A DNA stretch of 64,000 bases. Source: an uncultured bacterium (GTDB taxonomy: Bacteria > Edwardsbacteria > AC1 > EtOH8). Position numbers and translations under genes: made by a program. Shown here piece after piece: positions 55,810 through 62,281 of the stretch. Position 1 is the first letter of the stretch. Each line of letters starts with the position of its first letter. Location: positions 1 to 64,000 of the forward strand of contig CALMGM010000009.1 of NCBI GenBank assembly GCA_937863685.1, read 5' to 3'. The notes below the pieces were generated by a model. That model had not been told where the DNA came from, did not search any database, and saw only the letters and a program-made list of their open reading frames with translations.

Positions 55810-56385
55810 TCAGCTGCCGGAACGCAGGGTGCTCTCAAGCAATACCTGTTTCTTGCCGGTGCCGTAAATGGCATAGGATGAACACTCGCCGTTGGCGCCC
55901 AGCACGCCGCAAGGGGCCCAATAGGTGGTTCCCTGGCCGCTGACATTGGCAGCGACAACAACAAAACCAGGGGCAACCGGCGGTTCCGCAAATGCCATGG
56001 CATCGATGGAATTGCCGGTGCGGAGGAAGGGGTTGGCATAGGTGTTGTTCTTGGGCAGCATGGCATTGACGCCGGTGGAGACGTTGGCCGCAACGCCGGG
56101 GCAGTTGTCGGCCACATAGGACGGATTGGTGGAGGAATTAATCGCTATACCATTGAGGATGGACATGACAGTGGTCAACGCGTTCGGAACAGCCGGGTAC
56201 ATCCCCTGGCACTGGGTGGCAAAATCCTCGCAGGTCAGCTGCAGGGTGTGCATGTTGGACTTGACGGCCGCTTCCTTGGCCCGGTCCTGCATGGACATGA
56301 AGTTGGGGATGGCGATGGCGGCCAGGATGCCGATGATGACCACCACGATCATCAGCTCGATCAGGGTAAAGCCTTTGTTGTTCAT
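55810..56385 (-). CDS. pilA: type IV major pilin-like protein
   Basis: The 191-aa prepilin has a five-residue leader MNNKG, then FTLIELMIVVVIIGILAAIA with Glu5 conserved, cleaved by PilD after Gly. The globular part is rich in Ala/Thr with paired Cys (CEDFATQC near residues 51-57, C-terminal CGVLGANGECSSY), suggesting disulfides. It is paralogous to the pilin part of the gene at 56607 (shared KSNMHTLQ and EDFA). AGGAG lies 8 bases before ATG 56385, and a sigma-54 promoter stands upstream, fitting high regulated expression of a major pilin. Confidence 0.92.
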   Translation of the reverse strand: MNNKGFTLIELMIVVVIIGILAAIAIPNFMSMQDRAKEAAVKSNMHTLQLTCEDFATQCQGMYPAVPNALTTVMSILNGIAINSSTNPSYVADNCPGVAANVSTGVNAMLPKNNTYANPFLRTGNSIDAMAFAEPPVAPGFVVVAANVSGQGTTYWAPCGVLGANGECSSYAIYGTGKKQVLLESTLRSGS

Positions 56386-56444
56386 TGGGTCGCTCCTATT
56401 AAAGTTAATGGGTTGATTGTTTTATAGCTCTGACAGTTAAATAA

Positions 56445-56459
56445 GCAATATGCATGCCA
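56445..56459 (-). promoter_or_regulatory. sigma-54 (RpoN) promoter for pilA
   Basis: On the minus strand TGGCATG, four bases, TTGC, then T matches the RpoN consensus TGGCAYG-N4-TTGCW. The GG and GC doublets are exactly 10 nt apart. It lies about 60 bp before the pilin start, leaving a leader of roughly 50 nt. A sigma-54 activator gene lies 1.4 kb upstream in the same locus. Confidence 0.85.
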
Positions 56460-56563
56460 ACGATATTTAAATGAATTTAGACGACAAACTTCATATAGTT
56501 AACGATTTATGGCAGCACTCAGACACACGATCCTCGAACAAGACTGTAGCAATTTTATAGATG

Positions 56564-56578
56564 CTTGCAATATGCAAG
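56564..56578. promoter_or_regulatory. palindromic candidate enhancer site upstream of pilA
   Basis: CTTGCA-ATA-TGCAAG is a perfect palindrome with a 3-nt centre, centred about 114 bp upstream of the -24 element. Further TGCAA half-sites lie at 56585-56597. This is the spacing expected of an NtrC-type upstream activating sequence. Confidence 0.55.
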
Positions 56579-56606
56579 GGCCATTTGCACTATTGCCCAT
56601 GGTTTT

Positions 56607-57686
56607 TTAATGCGTCACCCCTCCGGCCATTATTTGTTCTATCTTGTTGCTTTTGCCAAACCCGCAGATGGAATAGCCGTAAGCATCGGGCGTTGCCCCC
56701 CCGTTCAAGACCCCGGCGTTGTTATAGCTGGTGTAATAGACCACCCCGCTGGGAGCCATAGCCGGAGGGCCGGCCGGCAGGTCGAACAGGGCAACGGCCT
56801 GCCGGTCAAAGGGGTTGGCATAGCCGATATGCGGGCTTATCAAGGCATTGGCCGGAAAGGGCGGCACCCTGACCCCTTCGGCGATGGAGCTTAAAAGATT
56901 ATCCCCGGTTATGGTGGAGATCCGGGTGTCCAGGTTATCCGGGTACCTGCCGCCGGTCTGGGCGGCAAAATCCTCCACCACCATCTGCAGGGTGTGCATG
57001 TTGGACTTGGTGGAGGCCTCCAGGGCCCTATAGCGCATGTTCATGTAATTGGGCACCGCGATGGCCGCCAGAATGCCGATTATCACCACCACCACCATCA
57101 GTTCTATCAGGGTAAAGCCCTTCTGGGACAGCTTCTTTATTTTTTCCTGCATCTGATTTAATTTTTCAATTATCTCCCGGTCCGCCTTCTGCTCCTCTTT
57201 GAGCTTTTGGGAATACGCCTCCATCTCGGACACCACCATTTTAACCGTCTCCCGCTCGTTTGCCACCATGTCCTTGACACTCCGGGCCATCAGATTGAAC
57301 TGCTCGGCCAGATGGTGGCTCTCGTCGTTCTTGCGGAATTTCATGGGGCGCTCCGGCCACCTGCCGTTCTCCAGCGATTTCATGCCGTTATTCAGGCTGA
57401 CCAAGGGCCCGGCAATGCGGTGGGAGATTATTATGGAAATCCAGCCCATGAACAAAACAATGACCGGGATCACGATAAAGAGCGTTTTATGCACCTGGTC
57501 GAAGATGCCGATTATGGCTATCTGTCCGGAGGCGAATTCCGGGCTGGTAATGCCATGCCAGATAATGAGATATATTGCCCCGCCGGTCAGCAGCATCCCC
57601 CCGACCACCATTATCAGTATCTGGGCGACCACCCTAAGCTGCATATCCTTATGAGCCAGCAAGTTGCGTCTTCGATTCTGGGCCAT
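56607..57686 (-). CDS. two-TM HAMP protein fused to a type IV prepilin
   Basis: This 359-aa chain has two parts in one frame. Residues 1-190 are a sensor-like module: TM1 (about 20-43), a short outer loop, TM2 (about 66-89), a HAMP region (ISHRIAGPLVSLNNGMKSLE), and a long coiled coil (about 133-188). Residues 185-210 are a class III prepilin signal: KLSQKG, cleavage after Gly190, then FTLIELMVVVVIIGILAAIA. A pilin-type globular domain follows. Topology is consistent: HAMP and the cleavage site are both cytoplasmic. An internal Met179 could give a normal 12-residue leader, but it has no close Shine-Dalgarno (nearest GGGAG is over 20 nt away). Cleavage would split sensor from pilin. Confidence 0.88.
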   Translation of the reverse strand: MAQNRRRNLLAHKDMQLRVVAQILIMVVGGMLLTGGAIYLIIWHGITSPEFASGQIAIIGIFDQVHKTLFIVIPVIVLFMGWISIIISHRIAGPLVSLNNGMKSLENGRWPERPMKFRKNDESHHLAEQFNLMARSVKDMVANERETVKMVVSEMEAYSQKLKEEQKADREIIEKLNQMQEKIKKLSQKGFTLIELMVVVVIIGILAAIAVPNYMNMRYRALEASTKSNMHTLQMVVEDFAAQTGGRYPDNLDTRISTITGDNLLSSIAEGVRVPPFPANALISPHIGYANPFDRQAVALFDLPAGPPAMAPSGVVYYTSYNNAGVLNGGATPDAYGYSICGFGKSNKIEQIMAGGVTH

Positions 57687-57748: not shown

Positions 57749-59923
57749 TCAGTCAACTTTAATGTTATAACTTTTGAGTTTCCGGTATAAAGTGGCGTAA
57801 TGAATGCCCAGCTTTTTTGCCGTCAGGGATTTGTTGTTACGGCATTCCGCCAGGACCCGGAGGATGATCTGCTTTTCCTTGTCCTTCAGATTGCCGCCGG
57901 TGACGGCCTCCGGCAGGTACGCCGTGATATCTTCGGCTTCCGGCCTCAACAGCTCATCCGGCAGGCTTTCCTTTTCTATCACCGGGCCGGTCTCCAGGAT
58001 GATGGCCCGCTCCAGGACGTTCTCCAGCTCCCTGACGTTGCCCGGCCAGTTGTACTGCGTCAAAAGGTCCCGGACGGCGGCGGACAGCGGTTTGGCCGCA
58101 ATGTTCTGCTTCCGGCAGTACTGGCCGACGATCTCTTCGGCCAGTAGCAGCACGTCGTCCTTGCGGTCCCTCAGCGGGGGAATGGTTATCTGGATGACGT
58201 TGAGGCGGTAGAACAGGTCGGTCCGGAACCGGCCCTTCTCCACCGCCTTGGACAGGTCGCTGTTGGTGGCCGAGATCACCCTGACGTCCACCTTGATGGG
58301 GCGGGTGCCGCCCACCGGCACGATCTCCCGCTCCTGCAGCACCCGCAGCAGCTTCACCTGGATGGCCGGGGAGGTCTCCGAGACCTCGTCCAGAAAAAAG
58401 GTCCCCCCGCTGGCCACCCGGAACAGCCCGTCCTTGTCCCTCATGGCCCCGGTGAAGGAACCCTTGACGTGCCCGAACAGCTCCGATTCCAGCAGGGTCT
58501 CCGGCAGGGCGGCGCAGTTGATGCTGACGAACGGCCCCTGGCCCCGGCCGCTCAGGCGATGCAATTCCCGGGCCAGCAGTTCCTTGCCGGTGCCGGATTC
58601 GCCGTAGATCAGCACCGTGCTGTCGGTGGGCGCCACCTGCTGGACCATGTTCATGACCTCGATGAAGCCGGGCGACCGCCCGATGATCCGGCTGTCGTAT
58701 TCCCGGCCGGCCGGCTCGGCCTTATCGGCCACCGGGATCTCGATATGGGCGAAGCGGATGAAATCGTCGATGGTCTTGCGGATGTACTCGGTCTTCTCCT
58801 TTATCTGGGAGATCTTGGCGGCGATCCCCGGGCCGGCCTGGTTCTCCCTCATCAGCCCGGTGATGGCGGCATTTATCTCGGAAAGGTAGGGATGAAGCAG
58901 CTTCAGCAGCGACTTGGTAAGCTCCTTGGTGGTCTCCAGCTGTTCCATCTCGATCACCCGGTTCTCCAGGGATTTGGCCGCACTCAGGTCCTGGAAGATG
59001 GCAATGACGCCCTCCAGGGCGCCCTGGGCGTTGTATATGGCGGTGGTGCTGACCCCCACCGGGATGCCGTCCTCCCGGCCCCGCGAGATCTTTATCTCCA
59101 GTCTTTGGGAGCGCCCCTCCCTGAGGATATTGTCCGGATCGAGCACGGCCCCCAGCGTTTCCAGGCCCTCCACGGCTATCTGGGAAACATGGCGGCCCGC
59201 GATCTCGCTCTCCCCCAGCCCCAGGATCTGCCGGCCGGCCAAGTTGCAGTAAACCACCTGCCCCTTTTCGTTGATGGTCAGCAGGCCGCTGCCCATCTTC
59301 TCCAGAATGTCGCCGGTGGATAATTTGAACTCCTCCAGGGCCCGGGTGGTATCCTCCAGCTGGCGGCCCTTGAGCCGCAGCCTCTCCGACAGGTAGCCGG
59401 AAAAGGCGGCCACCAGATAGAAGCAGATGGCGTACAGGTATCCCCGGAAGACGAACTCGGTGTTGAAGGCGGTGACGAAGTCCTGGTCGCGGGTGGTGAG
59501 CAGTCCGGTCTTCAGGCCGCGGTAATCAAGATAGATCAAAAAACCCAGGGTCAGGCTGGAGAGGGTGGCGGTGAAGATGGCTCCCCGGGCGAAACGGACG
59601 TTGGCGGCGGCAATGATGGCCAAAAAGAACAGCAGGGTGAAGGGGTTCTCCGCCCCGCCGGTCCGCTGGATGAACACCGAGATCCAGCCGACATCCAGCA
59701 GCATCTGCCCGTAGTCCCACCACCAGCCGGCTTTCTTGCGGTTAAGATACTTGGCCAGGATGGTGAACAGCAGATAGACCGCCGACAGCAGGATGATGGC
59801 CGGAAAATAAAAGGAAAGCGCCCCCAGTGCCTTAAGCACCAGAGCGCTTCCCGTCATCAAGACCACGATGATTATCCGGCCCCACAACATGATCGGATTG
59901 TCCTTCAGGAAGATTGAACCCAT
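57749..59923 (-). CDS. membrane PAS sigma-54 activator: PilS-like sensor fused to PilR-like output
   Basis: The 724-aa protein has six membrane helices (about 1-185) and a PAS domain (about 200-310; ILEKMGSGLLTINEKGQVVY is the PilS hallmark). A helical segment (about 325-395) lies where HisKA would be, but the phospho-His motif is absent and there is no HATPase_c domain. The AAA+ sigma-54 domain (about 407-640) has GESGTGKE, ELFGHVKGSFTGA (GSFTGA loop for GAFTGA) and GGTFFLDEV. The Fis-type HTH is at the end (SLTAKKLGIHYATLYRKLKS). No receiver domain. Likely activates the sigma-54 promoter of pilA directly from the membrane. Confidence 0.92.
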   Translation of the reverse strand: MGSIFLKDNPIMLWGRIIIVVLMTGSALVLKALGALSFYFPAIILLSAVYLLFTILAKYLNRKKAGWWWDYGQMLLDVGWISVFIQRTGGAENPFTLLFFLAIIAAANVRFARGAIFTATLSSLTLGFLIYLDYRGLKTGLLTTRDQDFVTAFNTEFVFRGYLYAICFYLVAAFSGYLSERLRLKGRQLEDTTRALEEFKLSTGDILEKMGSGLLTINEKGQVVYCNLAGRQILGLGESEIAGRHVSQIAVEGLETLGAVLDPDNILREGRSQRLEIKISRGREDGIPVGVSTTAIYNAQGALEGVIAIFQDLSAAKSLENRVIEMEQLETTKELTKSLLKLLHPYLSEINAAITGLMRENQAGPGIAAKISQIKEKTEYIRKTIDDFIRFAHIEIPVADKAEPAGREYDSRIIGRSPGFIEVMNMVQQVAPTDSTVLIYGESGTGKELLARELHRLSGRGQGPFVSINCAALPETLLESELFGHVKGSFTGAMRDKDGLFRVASGGTFFLDEVSETSPAIQVKLLRVLQEREIVPVGGTRPIKVDVRVISATNSDLSKAVEKGRFRTDLFYRLNVIQITIPPLRDRKDDVLLLAEEIVGQYCRKQNIAAKPLSAAVRDLLTQYNWPGNVRELENVLERAIILETGPVIEKESLPDELLRPEAEDITAYLPEAVTGGNLKDKEKQIILRVLAECRNNKSLTAKKLGIHYATLYRKLKSYNIKVD

Positions 59924-59940
59924 TATACCGGGGATCAGGA

Positions 59941-61152
59941 TTATTTACCGCCCATGATAGCCGAGGTCATGCTGAAGATCGGCAGGTACATGGCGATCAC
60001 CATGCCTCCGATGCCCAGGCCCAGCACCACCATGATCAACGGTTCCATGGCCGCGGTCAGTCCCTCCACCGCGCCGTCCACCTCCTCGTCGTAGAAGTCG
60101 GCGATCTTGTTGAGCATCTCGTCCAGGCCGCCGGTGGCCTCGCCCACCGCGATCATCTGCACCACCATGGGCGGGAATATCTTCATGGTCTTTAAAGGGG
60201 CCGAGATGGTCTCGCCGCCGCCGATGGATTTGCGGGCCTGCATGATGGCGTCCTGGACCACCCGGTTGCCGGCGGTCTTGGCGGTGATCTCCAGGGCGTC
60301 CAAAATGGCCACGCCGCTGGCCAGCAGGGTGCCCAGGGTGCGGGCGAAACGGGCGATGGCCGATTTCTGCTGGAGGTTCCCCAGGATCGGTATCTTCAGC
60401 AGTATCTGGTCGATCATCAACTGGCCTTTGTCCGTCTTATAGTACCGTTGGATGGCGATGGTTATGGCCACCCCCGCTATGATGATGGGCACTATCCACT
60501 TCTGCAGAAACTTTGACAGGGCGACCACGAAAAGGGTCGGAGCGGGCAGCTTGGCCCCCATCTCGCCGAACATCTTTTCGAAGATGGGGATCACGAAGAT
60601 CAGCAGGACGGCCGCGGCGCCCACCGCCACCGAGGTCAGGATCACCGGCATGATCATGGCCCGTTTGACCTTGGCCACCAGGGCCTCGGCCTTTTCCAGA
60701 TAGGTGGCCAGCCGCATCAGGATGTTGTCCAGGATACCTCCGGCCTCGCCGGCCGCCGCCATGTTGATATACAGCTCGCTGAACACATGCTTCTGCCGCT
60801 TGAGGGCCTCGGCCAGGGTGGAGCCGCCCTCCACGTCGGCCTTGATGGTCTCCAGCACCTTCTTGAAGGTGGGATTCTCCTGCTGCTGGGCCTGGATCTC
60901 CAGGCAGGACACCAGCGGCAGGCCGGCGTTGATCATGGTGGCGAACTGCCGGGTGAAGATCGACAGGTCCTTGTTGCTCACCTTGGGCTGGGTGAAGCTG
61001 AGCTTGATCTCCTTGGGCTTGATACGCACCGAGGAAACGATTATATTTTTGCGGCGCAGAGCCTCGATGACCGCGGTCTCGCTTTCGGCCGTCAGCTCTC
61101 CGGAGACCAAACCGGCTTTGGAATCACGCCCTTTCCAGAGATATAGTGGCAT
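59941..61152 (-). CDS. pilC: type IV pilus inner-membrane platform protein PilC
   Basis: The 403-aa protein is a GspF/PilC member with two repeats of the T2SSF fold. LSIFTRQFATMINAGLPLVS, LAEALKRQKHVFSELYINMA and AAGEAGGILDNILMRLATYL occur in the first; IARFARTLGTLLASGVAILD and VAVGEATGGLDEMLNKIADF-like sequence in the second. Three membrane helices are seen. It anchors the PilB/PilT motors and pilin assembly. It follows the pilT gene after 58 bp and precedes the regulator by 17 bp. Confidence 0.97.
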   Translation of the reverse strand: MPLYLWKGRDSKAGLVSGELTAESETAVIEALRRKNIIVSSVRIKPKEIKLSFTQPKVSNKDLSIFTRQFATMINAGLPLVSCLEIQAQQQENPTFKKVLETIKADVEGGSTLAEALKRQKHVFSELYINMAAAGEAGGILDNILMRLATYLEKAEALVAKVKRAMIMPVILTSVAVGAAAVLLIFVIPIFEKMFGEMGAKLPAPTLFVVALSKFLQKWIVPIIIAGVAITIAIQRYYKTDKGQLMIDQILLKIPILGNLQQKSAIARFARTLGTLLASGVAILDALEITAKTAGNRVVQDAIMQARKSIGGGETISAPLKTMKIFPPMVVQMIAVGEATGGLDEMLNKIADFYDEEVDGAVEGLTAAMEPLIMVVLGLGIGGMVIAMYLPIFSMTSAIMGGK

Positions 61153-61210: not shown

Positions 61211-62281
61211 TCAGACCACCGTCTGACGCTTTTTGATCATCTGGTCCAGTTCCTCCAAGTTGGAGGAGTAGTCAAAGGCGGTGTCCAGGGAGATCTTCTT
61301 CTCGAAGAACAGATTGGCCAGGGACTGGTTCATGGTCTGCATGCCGTATTTCTGCCCGGCCTGCATGGAGGAATATATCTGGTGCACCTTGTCGTCCCGG
61401 ATCAGGGCCTTGATGGCCGGGGTGCAGACCATGATCTCCAGGCACAGGGCCCGGCCGCCCCGGGTCATGGGGACCAGCTGCTGGGTCATCACCCCCTCCA
61501 GCACGAAGGCCAGCTGGGCCCGCACCTGGGGCTGCTGATATGGCGGAAAGACGTCGATGATGCGGTGGACGGATTCGGCCGCCGAATTGGTATGCAGGGT
61601 GGCCAGGGTCAGATGGCCGGTCTCGGAGATGTGCAGGGCCGATTCGACGGTCTCCAGGTCCCTCATCTCGCCTACCAGAACCACGTCCGGGTCCTGCCGC
61701 AGGGCATATTTGAGGGCGTTCTTGAAGCTCTTGGTGTCCGATTCCAGCTCCCGCTGGTTGATGATGCATTTCTTGTGATGGTGGATGTACTCGATGGGGT
61801 CCTCCACCGTGATGATATGGCTGCGCCGCTCGCTGTTGATCTTGTCGATCATGGTGGCCAGGGTGGTGGATTTGCCGGAGCCGGTGGGTCCGGTGACCAG
61901 CACCAGGCCCTTGGGCTTGTCGGCCAGGGCGGCCGCCACCGGGGGAAGCCCCAGCGCCTGGAAGGAGCGGATCTCCCAGGGGATCACCCGCATGGCCATG
62001 GCCACACAGCCCCTCTGCAAAAAGATGTTGCCCCGGAAGCGGGACAGCCCCTGAATGCCGATGGAGAGGTCCAGTTCCCGTTCGGTCTCGAAGCGCTTCT
62101 TCTGGCTGTCCTTGAGGATGCTGTAGGCCAGGGTCTCGGTTATCTGGGGAGTGAGGATCTCGTGGGAGGTTATCGTCAGCTCGCCGTCCACCCTGATCAC
62201 CGGGGGCACCCCCACCGTCAGGTGCAGGTCGGTCCCCTTCTTCTGGATCATCTCCTCCAACAATTGAGTGAGGGTCAACAT
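61211..62281 (-). CDS. pilT: type IV pilus retraction ATPase PilT
   Basis: PilT is the hexameric ATPase that depolymerises pili. The 356-aa protein has KGTDLHLTVGVPPVIRVDGE, Walker A GPTGSGKSTTLATMIDK, the Asp box TVEDPIEYIHHHKKC, Walker B VVLVGEMRDLET, the His box ISETGHLTLATLHTNSAAES, and the retraction-specific AIRNLIRE-like region as IKALIRDDKVHQIYSSMQAG. It is located between pilB and pilC. Its presence implies twitching or DNA-uptake pili. Confidence 0.97.
   Translation of the reverse strand: MLTLTQLLEEMIQKKGTDLHLTVGVPPVIRVDGELTITSHEILTPQITETLAYSILKDSQKKRFETERELDLSIGIQGLSRFRGNIFLQRGCVAMAMRVIPWEIRSFQALGLPPVAAALADKPKGLVLVTGPTGSGKSTTLATMIDKINSERRSHIITVEDPIEYIHHHKKCIINQRELESDTKSFKNALKYALRQDPDVVLVGEMRDLETVESALHISETGHLTLATLHTNSAAESVHRIIDVFPPYQQPQVRAQLAFVLEGVMTQQLVPMTRGGRALCLEIMVCTPAIKALIRDDKVHQIYSSMQAGQKYGMQTMNQSLANLFFEKKISLDTAFDYSSNLEELDQMIKKRQTVV

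Follow-up and report, generated by a model that had tools for sequence, protein, structure and literature searches.

The pilus gene cluster and its intergenic gap

The window (the whole 64-kb stretch of DNA analysed here) carries on its minus strand a pilus gene cluster in the order pilB, pilT, pilC, activator, pilin-like gene and pilin, the last two separated by a gap of 221 bp between the stop codon of the upstream gene (56607) and the start codon of the pilin (56385). The features discussed are the following:

62375 onward, minus strand: pilB, named from a reading of its translation
61211-62281, minus strand: pilT, named in the same way
59941-61152, minus strand: pilC, named in the same way
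57749-59923, minus strand: fused activator of 724 aa, with a PilS-like membrane part, PAS, AAA+ sigma-54 activator and Fis-type HTH
57773-57838, minus strand: codons of the activator's HTH, which reads NNKSLTAKKLGIHYATLYRKLK (helix IHYATLYRKLK) and is proposed to recognise the palindrome; these coordinates are a hand count
56607-57686, minus strand: pilin-like gene, extended at the N-terminus by a membrane and HAMP-like part, whose stop codon forms the border of the gap
56564-56578: putative palindromic enhancer CTTGCAATATGCAAG, exactly CTTGCA-ATA-TGCAAG, with the core TTGCA-N3-TGCAA at 56565-56577
56459-56444, minus strand: sigma-54 (-24/-12) promoter TGGCATGCATATTGCT, with the GG and GC elements within TGGCAYR-N4-TTGCW
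56393-56397, minus strand: AGGAG, the likely ribosome-binding site of the pilin gene
55810-56385, minus strand: type IV pilin gene (pilA), 191 aa, with the prepilin motif GFTLIELM

The 191-aa pilin gene is the likely target of the control region in the gap, and presumably encodes the major pilin. The closest named relative of the activator comes from Candidatus Edwardsbacteria (82% identity); no paper dealing with Edwardsbacteria and pili together was found in the literature search. In the pilin-like protein encoded at 56607-57686, about 189 residues, including membrane segments and a HAMP-like part, precede the prepilin cleavage motif. This extension is of equal length in the related genomes G001, G003 and G007, and the G002 protein is without it, while retaining the MAQNR start. 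A third pilin gene, related to that of the window, is represented in the window's own genome, G000, by its end at the edge of a contig (G000:C2:12-317, L099); its upstream region is missing.

The sigma-54 promoter and RpoN

An earlier, sequence-only reading of this DNA had placed a sigma-54 promoter before pilA, and this assignment stands, TGGCATGCATATTGCT being a strong promoter: no other place in the window matches TGGCAYG-N4-TTGCW, for which shuffles lead one to expect 0.04. Across the ten genomes of the phylum (relatives of Candidatus Edwardsbacteria), TGGCAYR-N4-TTGCW finds 50 matches vs 5 for the backward control, with five of the matches in G000. An absence of rpoN was looked for, and RpoN turned out to be encoded in all ten genomes, including the window's own (PF04552 above cut-off). 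Transcription is predicted to start near 56433, judging from the position of the -12 element. Neither a sigma-70-type promoter nor a terminator-like site (GC-rich stem plus T-run) was found in 56380-56700.

The palindrome and its conservation before pilA

The perfect palindrome that had been reported in the 221-bp gap is present, exact over its whole length. Its position upstream of the promoter is also as described, though the distance, given earlier as about 114 bp, measures 113 bp from the palindrome centre to the GG of the -24 element. At two mismatches or fewer it is the one match in the window vs 2.53 expected, so near-palindromes of this kind are not rare in themselves. The core TTGCA-N3-TGCAA has 37 exact copies in the ten genomes vs 28 for the backward control, and among the five copies in G000 three lie within genes, one is the window's and one stands before another pilin operon. 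On these counts the palindrome by itself was rejected as evidence.

Loss of the palindrome in relatives was looked for in every genome whose assembly includes both an activator copy with a YRK[LM] helix and the DNA upstream of pilA; this sets aside G006 and G008, whose contigs end before pilA, and G005 and G009, which have no full activator orthologue. In all six testable genomes (G000, G001, G002, G003, G007 and, on its contig C20, G004) it is retained in the form TYGCA-N3-TGCRA, one site before each pilA, with flanks that cannot be aligned among the six regions. This degenerate form, drawn up with the sites already known, is present in 0.08-0.35% of the dinucleotide shuffles (4000 for each pilA upstream region); allowing up to one mismatch to TTGCA-N3-TGCAA makes a weaker test, as the shuffles then reach 2-4% per region. 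The distances from site to -24 element in the six regions are 113, 112, 85, 76, 103 and 72 bp. Three of the six sites (G002, G003 and G007) are imperfect, each with a change at symmetric position 2 or 12 (T to C, A to G) on one side of the palindrome only.

Placed after the upstream gene, 28 bases from its stop codon, the palindrome might be thought part of an RNA hairpin, for example the terminator of the upstream operon, and the corresponding site on contig C8 of G000 (described below) does overlap the T-run of a likely terminator of its own upstream gene. For the gap in the window, this explanation was rejected as very improbable: besides the lack of any terminator-like site in 56380-56700, folding of the RNA is on a level with that of shuffles (z 0.24), the palindrome does not form one stem in the predicted fold, the palindrome itself has a three-base loop and no T-run, and the changes in the three imperfect sites are one-sided.

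In 16 sequence sources (278,884 bases), TYGCA-N3-TGCRA occurs six times, every time upstream of a pilA gene, one of the six being a perfect palindrome in G007 that lies about 4 kb before pilA and has no promoter after it. In that genome (L041, minus strand, 11.56-15.7 kb) two genes are inserted between the HAMP-pilin gene and pilA; pilA has a site and promoter of its own, with the perfect palindrome left behind before the inserted genes. Within the 64-kb window, a search near the pilus genes for further sites that might indicate autoregulation gave none at one mismatch or fewer besides the known one, and a search of the 221-bp gap for a second, weak site gave three-mismatch matches only, which are meaningless.

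Palindrome and promoter in combination

The sequence-only reading had also suggested scanning the genome and its relatives for palindrome-promoter pairs. Four palindrome-gap-promoter searches of the ten genomes gave 3, 2, 1 and 4 rows, corresponding to seven distinct places, all of them pilin loci: six stand before pilA, and the seventh is at G000:C8:4494-4609. A single match came from the backward controls of the four patterns taken together. The spacing ranges of all four patterns were set from known sites, and the last two patterns were drawn up with the G003 and G004 sites already known. The refinding of those sites is therefore not independent, whereas the absence of other places in the ten genomes is.

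These counts bear on the idea that promoter and palindrome are both chance matches, with pilA made by read-through from the pilB-T-C operon. Palindrome copies are indeed about as frequent as the control genome-wide, and no terminator was seen before pilA; but the joint conservation in six of six testable genomes with unalignable flanks, the confinement of the combined pattern to pilin loci in the ten genomes, and a sigma-54 consensus tenfold above its control (50 vs 5) leave chance hardly credible as the explanation.

The C8 site is followed, 96 bp on, by a sigma-54-like promoter, TGGCATTGTTAATGCA. The operon there (G000:C8:1-4622, L098) encodes an 845-aa protein, predicted from its sequence to be a beta-propeller, a second pilin with 47% identity to that of the window, and one more related protein. 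In the earlier description of the locus as a compact, self-contained regulatory circuit, "self-contained" is too narrow, as a different contig of G000 carries a second site-promoter pair.

The fused activator and its recognition helix

The activator comprises a PilS-like membrane domain (PF25323, 29.8 bits at a cut-off of 27), a PAS domain, a AAA+ sigma-54 activator domain and an HTH_8 domain. A Pfam scan found no receiver in it; a kinase core (HisKA plus HATPase) is matched nowhere along the protein at E 0.001, nor is any kinase part in residues 300-412 even at E 10. With both receiver and kinase missing, a phosphorelay is unlikely. On our reading of the alignment, the stretch between PAS and AAA+ (approximately residues 325-395) may be a decayed kinase dimerisation helix pair, to which Pfam lends no support. 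The NCBIfam LuxO model scores 266.7 bits over the AAA+ and HTH only, below its cut-off of 800. As regards PilR, the protein has the AAA+ sigma-54 activator with a Fis-type HTH, encoded beside pilus genes, and lacks the N-terminal receiver. The nearest chains in a PDB search with the HTH part were 4l5e, 4l4u, 3e7l and 4fth, named as NtrC-family regulators. The literature search turned up no membrane-bound sigma-54 activator that joins PilS to PilR.

The helix IHYATLYRKL is identical in six of the seven full-length orthologues (G000-G003, G006 and G007), the exception being the copy on contig C44 of G004. Among the 34 sigma-54 activators of the phylum with a readable HTH (those of L016 and L036 are unreadable and stand outside this number), YRK[LM] is present in seven, all of the window's type: six orthologues and a fragment on G004 contig C20. 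That fragment (IHYATLYRKMK) adjoins TTGCAAAATGCAA and pilA; the C44 copy in the same genome, with the helix TTPRILGYKIK, has no site at one mismatch or fewer within 15 kb. After the C44 activator gene (L042) come an HNH-type gene and then a sigma-54 promoter before an apparent ammonium transporter and PII gene. The proposed pairing of promoter and upstream enhancer with the adjacent fused activator draws support from this link between helix and site, and from their joint conservation.

The palindrome could also be the operator of some other regulator, whether a sigma-54 activator or an unrelated factor, with the fused protein acting elsewhere. G000 encodes eight sigma-54 activator-like proteins; moreover, SypG and LuxO of Vibrio fischeri have overlapping sites (according to excerpts of PMC10162802), which indicates that one site can serve two activators. 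Against this, YRK[LM], here the LuxO/PilR-like YRKL helix, is found in only one of the eight, the window's activator; site and helix move together in G004; a paralogue of the activator has a different site; and, outside the phylum, the identical motif comes directly after PilR-like genes. We therefore regard another reader as unlikely, and the adjacent activator as the preferred candidate.

The paralogue, a membrane-type sigma-54 activator, is encoded at G000:C2:51914-53437 (L003, L045; counterparts L044, L046-L052 and L018). Its helix is ISYRV[MI]LKKIK, and in all ten genomes it is followed by an 18-bp palindrome, TRTTAC-N6-GTAAYA, a sigma-54-like promoter and a pseudopilin gene. This palindrome has 16 copies in the ten genomes vs 8 for the control, ten of the 16 being the paralogue sites. 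Window activator and paralogue each having its own helix and its own site, site and reading head go together twice. A second TRTTAC-N6-GTAAYA copy is found in three genomes (G006:C133:2416, G007:C11:65570 and G008:C83:10355), an estimated 0.1-0.2 kb before the start of the paralogous activator, where it perhaps serves autoregulation.

The same motif outside the phylum

When 193 genomes were searched (10 from the phylum and 183 others, with no more than five candidates scored in each), the membrane part of the activator was found only within the phylum, in eight genomes. Among the candidates scored, nine outside genomes have regulators matching the AAA+ and HTH at E 1e-100 or better; in the seven whose N-terminus was in view (L140 and L141 stand outside this number) it is receiver-like by eye. 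Four of the nine precede a pilin, and in three of these four TYGCA-N3-TGCRA and a sigma-54-like promoter come next:

L134: exact site TTGCATAATGCAA before a pilin
L136: site TTGCAGATTGCGA before a pilin
L137: site TCGCATTCTGCGA before a pilin

The fourth, L142, has a two-mismatch site only, and the remaining five regulators have no site at one mismatch or fewer in the next 450 bp. The sites of L134, L136 and L137 lie directly after the regulator gene, and the regulators have the helix [ST]STLYRK[LI]QRYG. Unlike the window's activator, these PilR-like proteins have a receiver-like N-terminus, which a separate kinase presumably phosphorylates. Since the site stands before the pilins of PilR-like regulators outside the phylum, the operator is best seen as common to LuxO and a class of PilR-like regulators. 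Judged from the sequences, what appears unusual is that this operator and its reading head, both old, are combined with a membrane input free of phosphorelay; among the 193 genomes, this combination was found in this phylum only.

Relationships to LuxO, PilS-PilR and group 2 activators

The upstream activating site of LuxO is TTGCAWWWTGCAA (as given in excerpts of PMC10162802 and PMC11443567), and the core of the palindrome, TTGCA-ATA-TGCAA, is an exact instance of this 13-bp site, W3 (ATA) included. The suggestion that the palindrome may be a new recognition sequence is therefore not supported, its core being a published site and its motif standing before pilins in PilR-like regulators outside the phylum; what had been observed at the locus is confirmed, and its regulatory interpretation is supported. 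A literature search with the exact site strings returned papers on Vibrio and otherwise one that is unrelated by its title. LuxO sites lie at -89 to -120 from the start of transcription (excerpt of PMC11443567); in the Vibrio qrr genes the site is about 100 bp upstream of the sigma-54 promoter, as compared with 113 bp here and 72-112 bp at the other sites. Eleven residues of V. cholerae LuxO are described as critical for DNA binding (excerpt of PMC11407668). In a hand alignment, six of them are identical in the activator (N410, L418, Y426, R427, K428 and L429), two are conservatively replaced (V420 to I, I425 to L) and three differ (G409, I411 and S423), with T-[IL]-Y-R-K-L common to the two recognition helices. 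Unlike the LuxO/qrr system, the site in the window precedes a pilin, and there is one clear site where LuxO has two; also, the activator has membrane and PAS input where LuxO has a phosphorylated receiver, and no quorum-sensing partners are implied here.

The arrangement resembles the PilS-PilR systems of Pseudomonas, Geobacter and Myxococcus in that the activator gene adjoins pilB-T-C and a pilin gene with a sigma-54 promoter before it, and in that the activator joins a PilS-like membrane domain and PAS to a PilR-like AAA+ and HTH. It differs in being a single protein in which no receiver or kinase domain was found. The Pseudomonas PilR site is described, in the part of PMC6058289 drawn on here, as NifA-like TGT-N11-AGA with GTCT elements. 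By eye, no site of this type is seen in the gap, where the conserved element is TYGCA-N3-TGCRA, and to this extent we agree with the earlier remark that the palindrome does not resemble it. A literature search that took in a minor part of the subscription papers, and not the survey of PilR sites in Geobacter to which PMC6058289 refers, gave no paper with TYGCA-N3-TGCRA as a PilR site. The order PAS-AAA+-HTH without a receiver is that of the group 2 enhancer-binding proteins of the DmpR and PrdR type, which sense through PAS (table in PMC7175178); unlike these, the activator has a PilS-like membrane domain before the PAS, and the part of PMC7175178 consulted mentions no membrane-bound members of the group.

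A model for pilin control

The explanation that best fits these observations, to which we give a probability of roughly 80%, is that the gap is a sigma-54 control region in which the adjacent activator binds the enhancer and opens the pilA promoter. RpoN RNA polymerase would wait at the -24/-12 promoter before the pilin gene, and the membrane-anchored activator would bind the TTGCA-N3-TGCAA enhancer through its C-terminal HTH. Probably sensing a signal at the membrane or through its PAS domain, the activator would assemble its AAA+ ring, loop to the RpoN polymerase and open the promoter, so that more pilin is made. It may stay in the membrane throughout or be cut, and it probably also drives the C8 operon via the enhancer and promoter found there. 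With no terminator found before pilA, some pilA transcription may in addition come from read-through out of the upstream operon. Operator and reading head would be an old pair of the PilR/LuxO class, in which the receiver has, in this phylum, been replaced by a membrane input, so that a phosphorelay would not be needed.

A wider picture can be offered more tentatively, as one that may well need revision. The pilins of this phylum could be under the control of one-protein PilS-PilR hybrids that stay in the membrane, the sensor acting directly on the AAA+ ring without phosphate transfer and the DNA being brought to the membrane. There would be two classes, differing in their N-terminus (PilS-like in one, of another membrane type in the other), each next to a pilin-type gene of its own and reading a palindrome of its own (TYGCA-N3-TGCRA or TRTTAC-N6-GTAAYA), and TYGCA-N3-TGCRA would be an ancient operator of LuxO and of PilR-like regulators in several lineages.

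For an uncultured phylum, the locus supplies an operator and a reading head of pilus control that can be put to the test. It also connects the site of LuxO, known from quorum sensing in Vibrio, with the PilR-like control of pilins elsewhere. Its interest lies in the joining of an old operator to a phosphorelay-free membrane activator, and in a design of two paralogues with two palindromes, in which the paralogue and its own palindrome can serve as an internal comparison when the recognition code of Fis-type HTHs is studied. If activation at the membrane does proceed without phosphorylation, the activator would be a simple natural sensor wired directly to a sigma-54 AAA+ ring, an arrangement useful for asking how input domains gate such a ring. 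The sigma-54 contact loop of the activator reads GSFTGA, not GAFTGA; Desulfovibrio DVU3220 is listed with the same variant.
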